Shown here: in pieces, positions 2,272-25,023 of the stretch
Layout of the letters: every line of letters begins with the position of its first letter
Position numbering within the stretch: the first letter of the stretch is position 1
NCBI GenBank assembly: GCA_027325485.1
Contig: DAIEFN010000004.1
Span: 1 to 45,231, forward strand
Source of the DNA: Candidatus Saccharimonadota bacterium
GTDB taxonomy: Bacteria; Patescibacteriota; Saccharimonadia; Saccharimonadales; UBA4665
DNA: 45,231 nucleotides
Reading direction: 5' to 3'
Program-made: the position numbers and the translations under genes
The notes under the pieces: model-generated
Databases searched by the model: none
The model's input: only the letters and a program-made list of their open reading frames with translations
Told to the model about the DNA's origin: nothing

Positions 2272-2880
2272 ATGCAATTCAGCATCATGAATAGGTTTAC
2301 GGGTGACGTTAATTTTGTCGCTGAAATTGAGTGTGAGGATAGCGCACCCTTAAGCATCAAACGCGGCATGGCTGTGAAATGGGCTATCAGAAATAAAGTC
2401 AGCATTGTGCAAGCTGACTTGCGCAATGCCGACCTGCGTGGTATCGACTTGTGTGGTGCCAACTTGCGTGGTATCGACTTGCGCAATGCCGACCTGCGTG
2501 GTATCGACTTGTGTGGTGCCAACTTGCGTGGTGCCAACTTGCGCGGTGCCGACTTGCGTGGTGCCGACTTGCGTGGTGCAGACTTGCGCTTTGCGAACCT
2601 GCGCGGTGCCGATCTGCGCTTTGTGAACCTGCACAATGCCGACCTGCGTGGCGCCGGTTTATCGGTATTAATGACAGATATATGGACGTGTTACATTCAA
2701 CAAGATCATATCCGTATCGGATGCCAATATCACGCTGTAGCGGACTGGTTGTCATTTTCTGACGAAGAAATTAATGCAATGGATTCGCGGGCGCTGGCAT
2801 GGTGGGTGAAATGGAAGGACGCAATTATGGCCGTTCACGCCTCAATGACTTATAAATCAGCACAAGGACAAGTGAAATGA
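2272..2880 (+). CDS. Pentapeptide-repeat protein
   Basis: A 202-residue protein. Residues about 45-130 consist of around 17 A(D/N)LRG-type pentapeptides, predicted to form a right-handed quadrilateral beta-helix. The N-terminal segment (NRFTGDVNF...) and a C-terminal segment with IGCQYH and tryptophans match the general plan of pentapeptide proteins seen in many proteobacterial phages. Some relatives (Qnr, MfpA) mimic DNA and bind gyrase; nothing in the sequence proves that here. AAGGGGAAAG precedes the start. It overlaps the next gene by 4 bp (ATGA), so translation is probably coupled. The DNA contains an internal 60-bp tandem duplication. Confidence 0.88.
   Translation: MQFSIMNRFTGDVNFVAEIECEDSAPLSIKRGMAVKWAIRNKVSIVQADLRNADLRGIDLCGANLRGIDLRNADLRGIDLCGANLRGANLRGADLRGADLRGADLRFANLRGADLRFVNLHNADLRGAGLSVLMTDIWTCYIQQDHIRIGCQYHAVADWLSFSDEEINAMDSRALAWWVKWKDAIMAVHASMTYKSAQGQVK
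2416..2532 (+). repeat. 60-bp tandem duplication within the pentapeptide gene
   Basis: Bases 2416-2472 and 2476-2532 are identical over 57 positions at a 60-bp spacing, so four pentapeptides (one helix coil) appear to have been duplicated recently. Neighbouring pentapeptides have diverged more. Confidence 0.9.
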
Positions 2881-3272
2881 ATGAGCTTGATAAAAAAAGA
2901 CTAGAAAAAGCAATTGAAACTTTACGTGAAAGTGTTATTACCAAGATAAACACTGTAGACAATGTAACCCGCACCCTTAATCTTCATATAGGAATGATAG
3001 TATCAAGTGTATCTAGGAATTTTTGGGAATACACTTGGTCTGCCGATGGAAGCGGCCAGATTACAGTTACAATCCCTGTAGAAACTTTCGAAGAAGTCGA
3101 ACCGCTACTAACTGAGCTTGAGGATTATTTTGAGGAGGTGTTTATATCTAAGGAAGTGGTGACGAACTTTTCAGCCACTTATGAAATGGAAATTGCGCAG
3201 GGTGTTTTCCTTAGAATCATTGCTTTTTCTTTGAAAGCCGTAGAAGAAGTTCGTAAATTTGCCTGTCCTTAA
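2877..3272 (+). CDS. Hypothetical protein, paralogue of the 38153-38635 gene
   Basis: A 131-residue protein of unknown function, coupled to the pentapeptide gene by an ATGA overlap. Its second half resembles the minus-strand gene at 38153-38635: F-x-x-VE-x-x-L-x-(D/E)-(F/L)-ED-(Y/H)-F, then an aromatic-rich strand segment, and a shared ending (D/E)EV-x-x-F-x-CP. The two genes are therefore diverged copies in opposite arms. The N-terminal part is helical and charged. No catalytic motif is visible. Confidence 0.7.
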   Translation: MNELDKKRLEKAIETLRESVITKINTVDNVTRTLNLHIGMIVSSVSRNFWEYTWSADGSGQITVTIPVETFEEVEPLLTELEDYFEEVFISKEVVTNFSATYEMEIAQGVFLRIIAFSLKAVEEVRKFACP

Positions 3273-3287
3273 CATTAAACTATAACC

Positions 3288-3325
3288 GTGCCCATTACGC
3301 AATTTTACCTTATGGGCACTTTCTT
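3288..3325 (+). terminator. Possible terminator after the 2877 gene
   Basis: GTGCCCAT at 3288-3295 pairs with ATGGGCAC at 3312-3319, with a 16-base loop and TTTCTT following. The long loop and short T-run make termination efficiency uncertain. Confidence 0.5.
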
Positions 3326-3339
3326 AGAAAGGAAGTGTA

Positions 3340-4734
3340 ATGATAATTCCGATGGAAGAAATAGCAATCCCAAAGAATCGCCAAAGAAGAGTTTTTGATG
3401 AAGCTGCCCTTCTTGAACTTAGCACTTCCATCTCTGATAAGGGGCTTCTCCATCCCATTGTTGTCAGGCGCGATAGTGAAGGTCACTATCTACTTGTTGC
3501 CGGTGAACGGCGCTTCAGAGCTATCCGCTATCTTCATGACATAGAAAAACCTTTCAAATTCAACAATAAAGAAGTTCCTCTCGGCTCTATTCCTTTCTCT
3601 GACCTTGGAAAGATGGACCCTATCGCCGCAGAAGAAGCAGAACTGGAAGAAAACAGCATTCGGCAAGATTTGACATGGCAAGAAAAGAGTAATGCCATTG
3701 CACGTCTTCATGAACTGCGCCAGAAGCAGGCGGCAAAAGAAGGGAAAATTCAGACTGTTGGAGATACAGCCCTTGAAATTAAAGGAAAAAGGGAAGGTTC
3801 GGCTTATGAGGAAGTCCGCAACTCTCTTATCGTAGCAAAGCATCTAACTGATACTGAGGTTGCAAAGGCTGTAAGTGTTAAGGATGCATTGAAGATCCTG
3901 AAAAAGAAGGAAGAACAGCAAAAATTTGTAGAGTTAGGTATTAGCGTCGGATCAAAGGTAACCGCAGACTCTCATGAACTTATCCACGGAGACTGCCTTT
4001 CTGAGCTTGCAAATCGGCATAGCGAGTTTGACGTGATTGTAAGTGATCCCCCATACGGCATGGGAGCAGAGAGCTTTGGCGACGGTGCCGGTGTTCTCTC
4101 TTCCTTCTCCCACTCATATGAAGATTCCAAAGACTCTTGGCAAGCTCTCATGGAGCGTTTCATCCCTTTAACTTATCAAATCACAAAAACTCAAGCACAT
4201 ATGTACCTGTTTTGTGACATAGATAACTTCCACACGTTAAAAGCCCTGTGCCAAAAAGCTGGATGGTATGTATTCCGTACACCTTTCATCCTATATAAGC
4301 TGGGAACTGGCCGTATTCCACTTCCAGATAAGGGGCCGCGCCGTCAATGGGAAGGTATTCTGTATGCAATAAAGGGCGAAAAAACGGTTCGCAGTATACA
4401 AAGTGATGTATTACCCTTTGCAATGGATGTTTCTTATCCGCATGGCGCAGTCAAGCCTATCGGTGTTTATGTCGATCTTCTTAATAGAAGCTGTATGCCG
4501 GGGGATAAAGTCATCGATCCTTTCGCCGGAAGTGGGCCACTTTTGAATGCCGCGCAGCAATTGAAGCTTAATGCTACTCTTATTGAGCAGGATAAGGTTT
4601 CTTTCGGAATGATTCTTGACAGGAAAGAGAAGCTAATGCAAGTTAAAATGTCTTCACTTGTAAAATCGGAGCCACTTGAAGGTAAAGAAGCAGAAGCTTT
4701 ACTGAATAAGTTAAGCCGCGGGCTATCCTCTTAA
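3340..4734 (+). CDS. ParB-N domain / beta-class DNA methyltransferase fusion
   Basis: A 464-residue two-domain protein. Residues 1-70 form a ParB/sulfiredoxin-type domain with the GERRFRA motif, followed by a helical linker. The C-terminal half is an AdoMet-dependent DNA methyltransferase with DPPY at residues 236-239 and DPFAGSG at 393-399. The catalytic motif comes before the AdoMet motif, as in the permuted beta class of N6-adenine or N4-cytosine enzymes; DPPY favours N6-adenine. Such fusions occur in phages and may protect phage DNA from host restriction. The start follows GAAAGGAAGTG. Sequence specificity cannot be read from the sequence. Confidence 0.9.
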   Translation: MIIPMEEIAIPKNRQRRVFDEAALLELSTSISDKGLLHPIVVRRDSEGHYLLVAGERRFRAIRYLHDIEKPFKFNNKEVPLGSIPFSDLGKMDPIAAEEAELEENSIRQDLTWQEKSNAIARLHELRQKQAAKEGKIQTVGDTALEIKGKREGSAYEEVRNSLIVAKHLTDTEVAKAVSVKDALKILKKKEEQQKFVELGISVGSKVTADSHELIHGDCLSELANRHSEFDVIVSDPPYGMGAESFGDGAGVLSSFSHSYEDSKDSWQALMERFIPLTYQITKTQAHMYLFCDIDNFHTLKALCQKAGWYVFRTPFILYKLGTGRIPLPDKGPRRQWEGILYAIKGEKTVRSIQSDVLPFAMDVSYPHGAVKPIGVYVDLLNRSCMPGDKVIDPFAGSGPLLNAAQQLKLNATLIEQDKVSFGMILDRKEKLMQVKMSSLVKSEPLEGKEAEALLNKLSRGLSS

Positions 4735-8017: not shown

Positions 8018-8209
8018 TCAAGATTTAAGTTTAAACATGCCTCCCACTCCAGCCATAAGGGCACCAGCTCCGATTCCAAAATCTTGTGGATTCCATAATT
8101 GCCCCTTATAGATAGCATACACACTGCACCCTAGATAGACAAGTACCATAAGTATAGCACTTACCTTGCCATCATCTAAAGTTCCATTTACATTTTTAAG
8201 CATCTGCAT
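8018..8209 (-). CDS. Small holin-like membrane protein
   Basis: A 63-residue protein starting at 8209, where GGGAG precedes the ATG by 6 bases (8203 is an alternative). It overlaps the end of the endolysin gene by 14 bp. Two hydrophobic stretches (about residues 16-35 and 44-60) are joined by a short polar loop, and the C terminus is basic. Position between endolysin and spanins suggests a class II-type holin. A longer reading frame starting inside the endolysin gene has no ribosome site. Confidence 0.72.
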   Translation of the reverse strand: MQMLKNVNGTLDDGKVSAILMVLVYLGCSVYAIYKGQLWNPQDFGIGAGALMAGVGGMFKLKS

Positions 8210-8732
8210 TTGGAGCTCCCGAAGAAGAAGTTTCAGAAGAGGAAGAGGAAGAAGCATACATTTTAGCCTCTGCAAGCCTGCGACGCAGAAGGCCCATAAC
8301 TGGAACTTTATTTACGTGGTCCCAAAATTCAAACTCTCTTTGAATTACATTCAATGGGGCATTTTCATTTATAAAGCGAAGAAGTGTGCTATTTAAAAAG
8401 GCTACTTCTCCGATGTTAAAAACAAAGTCTACCAGAGCATCAAATTGCCCTTGACGTAGCGGAACTTTAACTCCCCTGTTAACAGCACTTACAGCAATTT
8501 GAAGGTCATCCCATAGGATTTGTGCGCCTTGTTCACGCGTGATGACCATTCCAGCGACAACCGGCGGCTTGGAAGCTGACGTATGCCCGTATCCAATAGT
8601 CCATACACCGCCGAGGTCTCTGTAAGCAATCCCACGGAAGCCTTCAAAGTTTTCTACAAGTGCAATTCCAGCCTGATCAATCTCTTTAAAGTGATCAATA
8701 GCACCTTCAACTATAGGTGGAGTGTAGGACAT
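8196..8732 (-). CDS. Endolysin, GH24 lysozyme (muramidase)
   Basis: A 178-residue T4/P22-type lysozyme. It has the exact catalytic spacing E-8-D-5-T in FEGFRGIAYRD...WTIGYGHT and the C-terminal GLLRRRLAE motif of the family. No signal peptide is evident, so it should depend on a holin to reach the periplasm. The tail is a serine-rich run (residues about 160-170). It overlaps the stop of the upstream lysozyme-like gene by one base (TAATG). Confidence 0.93.
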   Translation of the reverse strand: MSYTPPIVEGAIDHFKEIDQAGIALVENFEGFRGIAYRDLGGVWTIGYGHTSASKPPVVAGMVITREQGAQILWDDLQIAVSAVNRGVKVPLRQGQFDALVDFVFNIGEVAFLNSTLLRFINENAPLNVIQREFEFWDHVNKVPVMGLLRRRLAEAKMYASSSSSSETSSSGAPNADA

Positions 8733-9475
8733 TATCTATTTCCTTTTGAAAGTAATGAAGCCATCTGCAATCTGGAAAGTGCATATTTTCCAGAAAGGAT
8801 TTGATTGAGGGCTGGGCCTTGTTTACTTAATAAGGGCCCAAAAAGATTAAGAGTTTGTGGAGTATTAAGAGGCAGAAAAGAAGACTGCATTCCTGCTTCA
8901 GGAGGGGGAAGTAGACTTTTTATAGTTTTAAAGAAGTTACTATCTTCAGCAGTTCTTCGTCCTTGACCTTGACCTTGCCCTTGGCCTTGATCTGAAAGCA
9001 TATACTGAAGCTCTCTTTGTCTCCGATCTATAAGCCCCTGATGATTCCTTCCAGAGCCTTCATGCCGGAGCATAAAAGCAGCTAGACCTTCAATATCTTT
9101 AGGTGTAGCACTTTTTACACCTCTAAGCCCAGCTGCGAGCGTGCCGATTCCTGTATTAAGCCCGAAAGAAATAAGTCCCGTTTTCATCTTACTATCTAGA
9201 GAGTTCCAGATATCAAACTTACTTGCGGTTTTCCAGACCTTTTCTACGTCCTTGTGAAGAAGTTCGATAGCTTTTTCCTTTTTCTTTTCATGCGGAATGC
9301 CAGGATTGTTAAAGAAAGCAAACAATTTAGCAGAGTTTTCCTTATCATAGTTAAGTGCATGACCATATCCGACTGTAGGGGGAAGGTGCGGGCCATCTAC
9401 GTAGGCAGGTTTGAAGTTGTCATTCGCATTTTCTTGCGCTTTTAAAAACTCATAGTCTATACCTTCTATTGTCAT
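8732..9475 (-). CDS. Second lysozyme-like protein with extra C-terminal domain
   Basis: A 247-residue protein whose N-terminal 150 residues follow the GH24 plan (PTVGYGHAL, FGLNTGIG, GLIDRRQRE). The presumed catalytic spacing differs (about E-11-D-6-T), so activity is uncertain. A QGQGQGQG linker near residue 165 leads to about 75 residues of unknown type. It could be a virion-associated lysozyme that aids DNA entry, or a second lysin. It overlaps the upstream 79-residue gene by an ATGA. Confidence 0.75.
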   Translation of the reverse strand: MTIEGIDYEFLKAQENANDNFKPAYVDGPHLPPTVGYGHALNYDKENSAKLFAFFNNPGIPHEKKKEKAIELLHKDVEKVWKTASKFDIWNSLDSKMKTGLISFGLNTGIGTLAAGLRGVKSATPKDIEGLAAFMLRHEGSGRNHQGLIDRRQRELQYMLSDQGQGQGQGQGRRTAEDSNFFKTIKSLLPPPEAGMQSSFLPLNTPQTLNLFGPLLSKQGPALNQILSGKYALSRLQMASLLSKGNR

Positions 9476-17121: not shown

Positions 17122-18411
17122 TCATTTATACTTCCAATCTGTAGCATACCCGCGTTTTTGAAGTTCTGGTAGCTGCTGCTCTAACTTCCTTCCAATATCC
17201 TGCCGCACAATCGGGGAGTTTGGGATGATAAGTTTCTTGACATTTTTATAAGCTTTATCAACGGCGCCTTCAACAGTAAAATCCGTCCCGGATACTATAC
17301 AAACATAAGTTCCCGCTGTAACTATTTGGCCGTTCTCCAACTTAACTTCTGCTGGATGGAAGTTTCTCCCAACCTTCTCTGTCCCCCATATCGGGTATCC
17401 ACTTACAGATTCCTGACTAAAGCCACTGTATGGGAATGGTGGAATGGCCATAATAAAGCCAGCAGCAGTTAAATCCCCACCCCCCTTTGGATAGAAGGTA
17501 TCTTCCCCTTTTAAACTATCAAGCATCCACTCTGCCGTATTATGGTGAAGAACCTGCTGGATATTGAACAGGGGCCATCCAAAGCGGCTGGTAACCTCAA
17601 GGGGCATTGGCCCCCCGTCAGAGTCCTTAACAATTACAGCCACGTCAAGATACCCTGTATACCCCACCCTAATAGCTTCTGCCATCAATGGAAGTAGCAC
17701 TTTTTGTCCAAGAAGTGACTTCTCAAAGGGGACATATCGCATAACTGTCCCCATTTCCCCCGTATTAACTCCCCAATCTCCCGGCATAAGTTTCTTGAAT
17801 TCAAAATTTTCCAAGACCCAACTTGAGAAACCGTTTCTTCCTACCCAAGTTCCAACTGCCATCTCCACGCCCGGAACAAACTCTTGAAGCAGGAACGGAG
17901 ACTTAAGTTTACCATCCTTCTTCCACCTTCCAAGCATATAAACCATATCCTCCCAGCTTTTACTCACGTAGCTGAGAGCTTTATCAGCATCTCCCGTAGG
18001 CTTACTTACATACCGTTTCTTTGTGCTCTTTACAAAGGCTATAGCTTTATCATAATCAGAGAAGACTGTAGAATTGGCGATCTCAATCCCATTCGCTTTA
18101 AATAACTCCTGCCCAACTCCCCGTTCCAGTTCCCACTTAGCCCCTTCCAAATTCGAAGAGAAAATAGGGTAGCCCTCTTTAAAGTACCGTGTAAACCGAT
18201 GATTTCGAACATTATCGCTTATTAGAATAAGATCAGCCCATCGCATCCATGCTTCCCATGTATTGACCTTCTCAACTAAGCCATCTCCGACAGTATTTCT
18301 ACTTCCATCCTTTGCCTTACCCATATAGACTTTAACCTTATGCCCATCATAAGCAGCACGAAGTGCAAAGTCTATAAAGCACGCTGTGTCATCAATAAGA
18401 AGTATGTTCAT
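17122..18411 (-). CDS. PurD-like ATP-grasp ligase
   Basis: A 429-residue enzyme with a Rossmann-like pre-ATP-grasp start (MNILLIDDTA), a central ATP-grasp fold and a PurD-type C-terminal segment. Supporting stretches are YVSKPTGDADKA (nucleotide-binding lysine strand), LLQEFVPGVEMAVGTW and PLEVTSRFGWP (metal-binding end). PurD joins glycine to phosphoribosylamine, but the phage protein lies inside the virion block and may act on another carboxylate and amine. It overlaps the upstream internal-protein gene by ATGA, so it is co-translated with virion genes. No other purine gene is present. The fold is confident, the substrate unknown. Confidence 0.85.
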   Translation of the reverse strand: MNILLIDDTACFIDFALRAAYDGHKVKVYMGKAKDGSRNTVGDGLVEKVNTWEAWMRWADLILISDNVRNHRFTRYFKEGYPIFSSNLEGAKWELERGVGQELFKANGIEIANSTVFSDYDKAIAFVKSTKKRYVSKPTGDADKALSYVSKSWEDMVYMLGRWKKDGKLKSPFLLQEFVPGVEMAVGTWVGRNGFSSWVLENFEFKKLMPGDWGVNTGEMGTVMRYVPFEKSLLGQKVLLPLMAEAIRVGYTGYLDVAVIVKDSDGGPMPLEVTSRFGWPLFNIQQVLHHNTAEWMLDSLKGEDTFYPKGGGDLTAAGFIMAIPPFPYSGFSQESVSGYPIWGTEKVGRNFHPAEVKLENGQIVTAGTYVCIVSGTDFTVEGAVDKAYKNVKKLIIPNSPIVRQDIGRKLEQQLPELQKRGYATDWKYK

Positions 18412-22629: not shown

Positions 22630-23358
22630 CTAGTTAGAAAAGTTAAACAGATTGTTGCCCAAAAGGTTCGGATCATTAAAACTGAACATATTAGAAGAAG
22701 AACTTACAGGGTTATAAGCGGTAGTACCAAGCGGCAAACTCGTCGTCCCCATTGGAATTGTTTGTCCGCTTGCTGCCATTCCTATAGAATCCATTACATC
22801 ATTAGAAGTTCCGGGAATAGCGCCTGACGAAGAATTTCCAGTGAGTAGTCCCTGCAAAGCATTTGCACCTGCCCCAACAACCTGACCAACTGCTTGATTA
22901 TTCGCCCCTTGCTGCCCGGCAAAGATCTGCCCCGCCGTACCAGTTTGACTACTATTCACACCACTAAGCAGGGCTAAATCGTTGAACTGGTTTTGGAACT
23001 GTTGCGAAGCCATCCCTTGCCCATACTTTGTAAGTGCCGCTGCCTCTCCACCACTTCCAAAGGTTCCATGCGCTGCTGCACTTGCATCTACCGCGCCAAT
23101 TCCTTGCTGAAGTGCAAAGTCATACCCGGCATTACCAGCGCCAATTCCTTGAGTCATGAGTTGTTGAAGCATTGGCTGGTACTGCGCCCACTGACTATTA
23201 AAGGGGTCAGCGATGTTAGCACCCTGCGAATTGCCGCCAATTGGATTGCTTGTTACTGCCCCACCAGAAGCGGCTGGGCTACTACTATTACCCCCGAAGA
23301 TACTATTTACAACCCCACCAATTAAAGGGGCTGCTAAAGGTTCAAGAAAGCCAAACAT
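22630..23358 (-). CDS. Small internal/ejection protein
   Basis: A 242-residue, Gly/Ala/Gln/Ser-rich protein. The start FLEPLAAPLIGGVVNSIFGG is a glycine-zipper-like hydrophobic segment, and the middle (GKYGQGMASQQFQNQFND-type) matches small podovirus ejection proteins that resemble P22 gp7 in position. TAAGGAG precedes the start. Confidence 0.6.
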   Translation of the reverse strand: MFGFLEPLAAPLIGGVVNSIFGGNSSSPAASGGAVTSNPIGGNSQGANIADPFNSQWAQYQPMLQQLMTQGIGAGNAGYDFALQQGIGAVDASAAAHGTFGSGGEAAALTKYGQGMASQQFQNQFNDLALLSGVNSSQTGTAGQIFAGQQGANNQAVGQVVGAGANALQGLLTGNSSSGAIPGTSNDVMDSIGMAASGQTIPMGTTSLPLGTTAYNPVSSSSNMFSFNDPNLLGNNLFNFSN

Positions 23359-23382: not shown

Positions 23383-23892
23383 TTAAATGGAAGCAATTCC
23401 CTTTCGAAGCCTCTCAATATAGCTGTGAAGGGCGCTTTTGGATAGTTTAATTCTATCCAATTTTGGATTAACTTGACAGTTAACTAGGAGATTAAAGCGG
23501 TCTTCATTTAGCTCCCTCTTAACAAGGTACTTATAAACTATTCTCATCTTTCTAACATCAAAAATGTCCTCAAAGATTACATGGACACCCTGAAAACGGT
23601 TTAAATCCACTTCCGGCAATTTCAAATCTTCTCCAAGTGAAGCTTTAATTTCTTCTTCCGATCGGTGGATAATAAGTTTAGGCGCAGAGCTATCGTTAAT
23701 CTCTTGAAGATAGGGAAAAGCTCCAGTCTCTGCCGTCCCAACCTTAAATCCTTCCTTTTTCAAAGTATTAAACTGTTTAAAAGGAAGTTGAGATAGTGAA
23801 TCATGGTAGCAGAGGTTCTTATCATCTGTAAAGAGATTGGCTAGCCACGTTGTGCCTGATCTTGGTTGTCCGATAATATAAAAATCAAGCAT
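23383..23892 (-). CDS. Small sulfotransferase-like protein
   Basis: A 169-residue protein starting at 23892 after GGAAGGAG. Residues 4-20 contain YIIGQPRSGTTWLANL, the PAPS 5'-phosphosulfate-binding loop of sulfotransferases. PKLIIHRSEEEIKASL fits the 3'-phosphate-binding segment (Arg and Ser conserved). It is shorter than most family members (often 250 or more residues), so the substrate side may be reduced. It begins one base after the SET-domain gene stop. Known family activity is transfer of sulfate from PAPS to hydroxyl or amine groups; the target here is unknown and may be a virion or host surface component. Confidence 0.8.
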   Translation of the reverse strand: MLDFYIIGQPRSGTTWLANLFTDDKNLCYHDSLSQLPFKQFNTLKKEGFKVGTAETGAFPYLQEINDSSAPKLIIHRSEEEIKASLGEDLKLPEVDLNRFQGVHVIFEDIFDVRKMRIVYKYLVKRELNEDRFNLLVNCQVNPKLDRIKLSKSALHSYIERLRKGIASI

Positions 23893-23893
23893 C

Positions 23894-24316
23894 TTATTCT
23901 CCTTCCAACAACAAGCAAGAATAATCAATAAGAATCTCTTCTCCACTATCTATAGGACGAACTGCAATAAGATTCACCACATCGGCCCCAAAAATCTTAT
24001 GCAGCACTACATTAGCATACTTTGTACTATGGTTTATATACTTAAAGATGCTATTTAAACTTTCTTCTCGGAAGGCTACAGCAACCTTCTCACCTCGAAG
24101 GTATGACCGAAGTGTAAACAGTCCTTTTCCTTCAATACTGGAAAAAGTAACAGAAAAGTCTTCTAGACCTTCTTTAAAGAAGTCTACACCTTTCCAGCAC
24201 AGTTCTTCAACTTTCGGGTTCAGGCCCAAACTTTCACAGTAAATCTTATATTCCTCTCTAGCTTCTATCCCAAGTTCTCGCATACTGCTATCTGCTTTTG
24301 TCATATAGAATCCCAT
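23894..24316 (-). CDS. SET-domain protein (putative lysine methyltransferase)
   Basis: A 140-residue protein. Residues 58-132 carry SET-domain marks in order: EGKGLF (62-67, AdoMet-binding glycines), YINHSTKYAN (93-102, the NH-S knot) and GEEILIDY (125-132, catalytic tyrosine region). The proline usually before the second Asn of the NHxxxPN motif is missing. SET enzymes methylate protein lysines using AdoMet. The gene follows the adaptor gene by 2 bp and precedes the sulfotransferase-like gene by 1 bp, so all are co-transcribed with virion genes. The target is unknown. Confidence 0.85.
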   Translation of the reverse strand: MGFYMTKADSSMRELGIEAREEYKIYCESLGLNPKVEELCWKGVDFFKEGLEDFSVTFSSIEGKGLFTLRSYLRGEKVAVAFREESLNSIFKYINHSTKYANVVLHKIFGADVVNLIAVRPIDSGEEILIDYSCLLLEGE

Positions 24317-24318
24317 AA

Positions 24319-25023
24319 TTAACTACTCTTATATTTGGAAGGTGCAAAGAAAATGGAAGCTTCTTCTCTATTTGCTGCAAAAGCTTCCTCTTTATACAAT
24401 AAAAATTTCTGGCTTATTTCCCTTCTCATGTCTGGTGGGGTTAGATATTCTAAGGCTATCTCATCCGCAAGACCCCACTTGAGCATCTGAAAGAACTCTT
24501 GTGGAAAGTCTGGCGCATCAGTTGCAAGGTTGAAATCATAAACTTGCCGCTGGATATTTACTTTTAAGTTCCAAATAGCTTCTGCTGGCACGTCGTAGAC
24601 AGTAAGGATACCCCCACTAAGCTGTGGATCGTAGAAATACATATTCAACGAGCCAGAACTTGTAGGATTTCCCAGCCTGTCAAAGTCATATCGGCTCATG
24701 GGAGTGAGCCGGACTTGACTATTGGAATTTATATTAACTGTATAGCAGTCTAAAACCCTAAGAGGAAGGGTTGTCCCACTAAGTGTACTTAAGTTGTACT
24801 GTGCTTGCCCTACCACTACAGGGAAAGTTACAGTTTGCACACACCAAAGTGGCAACCCTTCTAAAGCTAATTTCTTAGCCACAATGTTTAATGCCTGCAT
24901 ACAGTTCGTTGTATCACTGACTGGTATTGTATCTTGTGAACTGTATGCACCAATAAGCCTAAGAGCCGCCCAGACTATATCGGAAGCGGCCATTGTGAAG
25001 GTTGTAGTTCCGCTAACAGACAT
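24319..25023 (-). CDS. Head-tail adaptor (gp4/gp11-like)
   Basis: A 234-residue protein whose start (TMAASDIVWAALRLIGAYSSQDTI) and helical plan (ALNIVAKKLALEGLPLW) match podovirus tail-tubular/DNA-stabilisation adaptors such as T7 gp11 and P22 gp4. The C-terminal segment ALEYLTPPDMRREISQKFLLYKEEA is also typical. It should form the ring joining portal to tail. It overlaps the upstream gene by one base. Confidence 0.75.
   Translation of the reverse strand: MSVSGTTTFTMAASDIVWAALRLIGAYSSQDTIPVSDTTNCMQALNIVAKKLALEGLPLWCVQTVTFPVVVGQAQYNLSTLSGTTLPLRVLDCYTVNINSNSQVRLTPMSRYDFDRLGNPTSSGSLNMYFYDPQLSGGILTVYDVPAEAIWNLKVNIQRQVYDFNLATDAPDFPQEFFQMLKWGLADEIALEYLTPPDMRREISQKFLLYKEEAFAANREEASIFFAPSKYKSS

Follow-up and report, generated by a model that had tools for sequence, protein, structure and literature searches.

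A SET-domain gene and a sulfotransferase-like gene occupy an exchangeable accessory-enzyme slot in a podovirus

Two genes between the tail adaptor and the ejection gene

The window, by which we mean the whole 45,231-nucleotide stretch of DNA analysed here, is a podovirus contig that encodes GroES and a Mu gpT-like capsid protein and comes from a metagenomic source assembly of 0.62 Mb. A search for protein P0002 in 149 relatives of this assembly returned a single weak match, and comparison of the capsid protein with genome contigs for host assignment gave no match. The locus examined comprises the following features, listed in the direction of transcription:

24319-25023, minus strand: SU10-type tail adaptor, the upstream border of the slot (PF24175, E 9e-9)
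23894-24316, minus strand: compact, stand-alone SET-domain protein of 140 aa (Pfam PF00856, E 7e-7)
23898-23906, minus strand: Shine-Dalgarno GGAAGGAGA of the sulfotransferase-like gene, within the 3' end of the SET ORF (read from the sequence)
23383-23892, minus strand: short sulfotransferase-like P-loop protein of 169 aa (PHROG 10855, E 5e-28)
22630-23358, minus strand: gp14-type DNA-ejection or internal virion protein, the downstream border of the slot (PHROG 598 'DNA ejection', E 2e-10)

A preliminary description of this DNA had placed the SET and sulfotransferase-like genes 1 bp apart on one strand, between head-tail adaptor and internal protein genes. The coordinates of the two ORFs (24316-23894 and 23892-23383) and the family matches of both neighbours agree with this layout, and the arrangement with late genes, on the same strand and translationally close, is real. 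For the sulfotransferase-like gene, the strong Shine-Dalgarno favours the ATG at 23892 over a longer ORF with a GTG start; since this element lies inside the end of the SET ORF, the two genes are likely translated from one late message, and they would be expressed late together with the tail and ejection genes. Neither gene is a chance ORF, given the open frames, family matches, motif conservation and relatives at the same position. Among relatives, the adaptor gene is kept in the locus as far as the sequence extends, and counterparts of the ejection protein are 30-46% identical.

The SET protein scores 30.0 bits against the Pfam SET model (curated cutoff 22.4) and carries the motifs GxG..F (residues 63-67), Y93..N95-H96 and GEExxxDY (125-132). 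In alignments of slot SET proteins, GxG..F, Y.NH and E...DY are invariant in eight core sequences, and G, NH and DY in 34. Its AlphaFold2 model (pLDDT 80.8, core >90) matches EZH2, MLL1, SETD8 and vSET in the PDB at Z 10.8-12.7, with EZH2 at Z 12.7 over 87 residues, and the family profile matches MLL1 at 3e-16 and vSET (1n3j) at E 7e-12. These motifs and the predicted fold suggest that the protein is probably a catalytically competent SAM-dependent lysine methyltransferase. Similar to the phage protein, vSET of Paramecium bursaria chlorella virus PBCV-1 is a compact SET domain from a virus (3kma, matched by fold at Z 10.8), but it belongs to a eukaryotic virus and targets histone H3K27, whereas the phage SET is shorter (core of about 80 residues) and bacteria have no such histones.

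Other likenesses are found among phages. The cupin-SET proteins of PHROG 34170, represented by gp30 of Rhodoferax phage P26218 and gp49 of Pseudoalteromonas phage PH1, share with the window SET protein the linker, the SET core and the position before the ejection gene; both are annotated without function, and the genome paper of P26218 is silent on SET or cupin (PMC4657236). Unlike these proteins, the window SET has no cupin half, covering only positions 195-276 of the 296 in the PHROG 34170 profile, and is followed by the sulfotransferase-like gene. Because it aligns with the linker and SET portions of the fusions, it is a cupin-less version, and no cupin was matched among the window's own genes. 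As judged from alignment and model, the gene corresponds to a cupin-SET slot protein pared down to its linker and SET portions.

Pfam sulfotransferase models match the second protein only below their cutoffs (Sulfotransfer_1, 20.0 vs 27 bits; Sulfotransfer_3, 13.6 vs 22 bits), so its identification leans also on motifs and fold, and we label it sulfotransferase-like. It contains a 5'-PSB motif PRSGTTW (residues 10-16), C28-x-H30-D31 and a 3'-PB element R77...S85; 5'-PSB and R77 are conserved in at least 90% of an alignment of 39 sequences. From SULT and TPST enzymes, we presume that the conserved His30 and Asp31 would fall near the position of the catalytic base. The AlphaFold2 model (pLDDT 90.7) has human tyrosylprotein sulfotransferase-2 as its best VIA match (Z 10.2, 148 residues aligned, 3.3 A), and the top 23 chains are all sulfotransferases or members of the family (Z 8.7-10.2), with kinases reaching 8.6. 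Foldseek matches were weak, the best sulfotransferase having an E-value of 0.008. The fold predicted is that of a minimal PAPS-type sulfotransferase, and the protein is probably a catalytically competent, PAPS-dependent one. While TPST1/2 share the PRSGTT and R...S motifs with it, they have about 280 structured residues compared to its 169, at 14% identity; 3-O-sulfotransferases lie within 1 Z of the TPST match, and the fold therefore gives no indication of substrate. The 'hydrolase' family PHROG 10855 of Pseudomonas phages such as PaMx25 is the same family (36% identity, same motifs), although its genes there adjoin denV/zinc-finger/nrdJ or lysis genes, whereas that of the window lies in the tail/ejection position. 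For both genes, the family assignments made earlier are thus correct, by PF00856 for SET and by PHROG 10855, motifs and fold for the sulfotransferase-like protein.

An exchangeable slot for accessory enzymes

The contents of this position in other phages were compared in two surveys that were blind to the slot, with relatives gathered by capsid protein. The first covered relatives of the window's major capsid protein and the second the capsid lineage of Rhodoferax phage P26218, which is unrelated to the window's. In the first survey, 23 of 24 complete slots held an enzyme and one was empty; among 360 called genes, all 28 slot genes were enzymes as opposed to none of the other 332. Relatives carried a cupin, a cupin with a 2OG hydroxylase (aspartyl/asparaginyl-type), a fused version, a GNAT or a sulfotransferase-like gene alone. 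The 36 complete slots of the second survey contained cupin-SET, cupin, hydroxylase plus GNAT, cupin plus hydroxylase, or GNAT, as well as one DUF6445, one 115-aa gene without family and a few empty slots, with 45 enzyme genes inside the slots and none among 505 genes outside. Across both surveys, none of about 840 non-slot genes match the slot enzyme families, although divergent paralogues outside the slot may be missed because the profiles were seeded from slot members. As the loci are phylogenetically related, Fisher values (1e-41) merely describe the contrast. Taken together, the surveys show that podoviruses have an exchangeable slot for accessory enzymes, extending from the tail adaptor/nozzle genes to the gp14-type ejection gene, and that both window genes are what it holds in this phage. 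The 'short tail fiber/adhesin' label of slot cupins (PHROG 12032 and 24280) was rejected on the basis of Pfam Cupin_2 matches (one above cutoff, one below) and their location in the enzyme slot.

The same arrangement recurs widely. Cupin-SET fusions make up about 72 of the best 80 of 263 relatives in an IMG/VR SET profile scan, most of them immediately 5' of the ejection gene and often overlapping it, and a cupin-SET gene also directly precedes the ejection gene in isolates P26218 and PH1 and in metagenomic phage MW202744. Sulfotransferase-like genes occupy the slot in about 45 loci from IMG/VR, alone or with a hydroxylase in either order. Further combinations include a cupin-SET followed by a GNAT (phage zth2-2), SET, hydroxylase and cupin as three separate genes (locus L002), GNAT, sulfotransferase and hydroxylase (L214), and sulfotransferase with a SAM methyltransferase (L155). 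In BPP-1, bbp24/bbp23 are a GNAT and a cupin but adjoin the terminase gene, not the ejection gene. Relatives of the SET and sulfotransferase-like proteins are also found away from ejection genes in other phages, so these families are not tied to virion substrates.

The preliminary description had treated the SET and sulfotransferase-like genes as a pair that might be conserved. A conserved-order search among about 80 SET and 80 sulfotransferase loci from IMG/VR and in the phage collection found no second instance; each gene instead recurs singly or with cupin, 2OG-hydroxylase or GNAT partners in the same slot, which speaks against a dedicated pair.

Slot content is exchanged often. On capsid trees it changes at least 10 times in the first survey and 16 times in the second, and slot type takes 14-16 changes alike on capsid, nozzle, adaptor and ejection-protein trees; by these counts there is no co-inheritance of the slot enzyme with any of the four genes. 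Loci L017 and L021 share 94.9% identity along the 3.7 kb that ends at the slot start codon, beyond which one encodes a sulfotransferase and the other a cupin. Similarity returns in the ejection gene at only about 76-80%, and the exchange may therefore take in downstream genes. Between L242 (cupin-SET) and L234 (hydroxylase plus GNAT), similarity is equal on either side of the slot. One 47.9 kb contig (IMGVR_UViG_3300037010_001860) includes both L192 and L021, one at each end; the slot encodes a sulfotransferase in L192 and a cupin in L021, and the two are probably strain variants that were joined during assembly.

Two observations extend the catalogue of loci. In L143, a cupin-SET fusion (2827-3762) lies among siphovirus-like tail genes, judged by eye, directly before a tail-tip-like gene, and the association may thus reach beyond podoviruses. 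In L181 (7506-7982) and L162 (7500-7967), the gene of a 155-158 aa protein with no Pfam match separates the sulfotransferase-like gene from the next large gene of virion type, and may represent another slot family.

Possible roles of the slot enzymes

That at least five unrelated enzyme folds replace one another at one place, in capsid lineages with no relation to each other, strongly signals selection, which would favour small modifying enzymes during tail/ejection assembly or genome delivery. Judging from sequences and models, the slot enzymes are probably active protein modifiers. Made late alongside the tail and ejection proteins, they would act on proteins then present. Phages are known to modify virion proteins with enzymes of their own, as in mycobacteriophage glycosylation. 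The position of the slot points to the tail/ejection complex or to delivery as the target, and the complex under assembly, or else the delivery step, may be the first choice. Each chemistry might then serve as a dispensable, replaceable tuning of infectivity and not as an essential assembly step.

The ejection proteins encoded beside SET genes have no conserved lysine and are not lysine-rich, and that of the window has a single lysine; with no conserved lysine available, methylation of a fixed site in the neighbouring ejection protein was rejected. As slot content also follows none of the four virion genes, a fixed site on the virion proteins compared looks unlikely. For these two reasons we hold modification of virion proteins, whether of the tail/ejection complex or in delivery, at a probability of only about 0.4.

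That slot content is not co-inherited with virion genes, and that unrelated chemistries swap freely between near-identical phages, would fit host-directed morons. Here, the slot would be no more than a place where insertions are tolerated and late expression is good, and its products, expressed late from the virion operon, would modify host proteins or the cell surface in defence, superinfection exclusion or lysis timing. Some slots are empty, relatives of both families lie near lysis or DNA-metabolism genes elsewhere, and the window slot has a low GC content (0.379 vs 0.45), among the lowest 1% of the virion block. A generic insertion point, however, should also carry nucleases, toxins and regulators, while the slots examined hold almost only folds that modify proteins or small molecules, and one gene position is kept across unrelated capsid lineages. 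We regard host-directed morons as rather unlikely.

In T7, gene 13 (internal virion protein A) is preceded by gene 12 for the tail tube and followed by gene 14 for ejection, an order that matches the window's adaptor-SET-sulfotransferase-ejection by position. A GNAT of roseophage SIO1-type phages, pc40, has been proposed as the gp13 counterpart, with a role in morphogenesis cited (PMC6775973). The SET and sulfotransferase folds are unrelated to gp13 or pc40, and neither window protein matches PF11090, the T7 gp13 family. T7 gp13 was also tried as a sequence relative of the slot GNATs and rejected (hhalign probability 0.1, nothing by hmmsearch), and the likeness is kept as positional only; a PDB profile search with gp13 returned only two spermidine acetyltransferases at E 1.4.

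The T7 gene bears on two further explanations. In one, the virion takes up slot products along with the ejection proteins and injects them, and they would modify host proteins in the first minutes of infection. Gene 13, at the same position, is called an internal virion protein; the ejection gene immediately adjoins the slot, often with overlap, in many lineages; and exchangeability fits an arms race. Nevertheless, no sequence relation between gp13 and the slot GNATs could be detected, and delivery of such effectors by the virion appears distinctly improbable. In the other, as proposed for gp13, the enzyme folds serve as non-catalytic morphogenesis factors, chaperones for assembly of the ejection complex. 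Consistent with this, the position is that of gene 13, which Pfam describes as encoding a probable scaffold protein, some slot cupins have lost histidines that serve as metal ligands, and the L031-type GNAT has only a weak Pfam match. Against these points, the SET and 2OG-hydroxylase alignments show no variation at catalytic residues, the 5'-PSB hardly varies among the sulfotransferases, it is implausible that at least five unrelated folds should stand in for one another as a single chaperone, and empty slots occur. Non-catalytic factors thus seem very unlikely.

Modification of virion proteins can also be cast more broadly, as one podovirus slot next to the ejection genes, in many lineages, whose interchangeable enzymes modify proteins (by lysine methylation, hydroxylation, acetylation or sulfation) and would alter the injection machinery or be co-injected with it. 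The window would then hold the first version with a methyltransferase and a sulfotransferase, and gene 13 of T7 would be a degenerate occupant. We advance this broader form tentatively, as somewhat unlikely in full. No description of the exchangeable slot or of its phage SET and sulfotransferase members was found in the literature searched, with subscription papers and preprints outside its scope, and a search by term of PMC10386132 and PMC10975493 gave no mention of these enzymes. The slot brings together genes whose current labels are hypothetical, 'short tail fiber' (cupins), 'hydrolase' or auxiliary metabolic, and through it the unexplained gene 13 of T7 could be approached by experiment. 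Should a phage-encoded SET or sulfotransferase enzyme methylate or sulfate a protein of phage or host, this type of protein modification would be new to phage biology.

Other genes of the window

Elsewhere in the virion block, positions 17122-18411 (minus strand) encode a PurD/GARS-like ATP-grasp protein (PF01071, E 2e-11; TIGR00877, E 9e-25, yet far under its cutoff), a ligase in a structural operon, with counterparts 53-61% identical at that position in about eight relatives. Two adjacent genes of the phage-lysozyme family (8196-8732 and 8732-9475, minus strand; PF00959, E 2e-37 and 1e-7) include a divergent second copy. On the plus strand, 2272-2880 encodes a pentapeptide-repeat protein (PF00805, E 3e-37) and 3340-4734 a fusion of ParB with an N6/N4 DNA methylase, in a region that a DNA polymerase gene adjoins.
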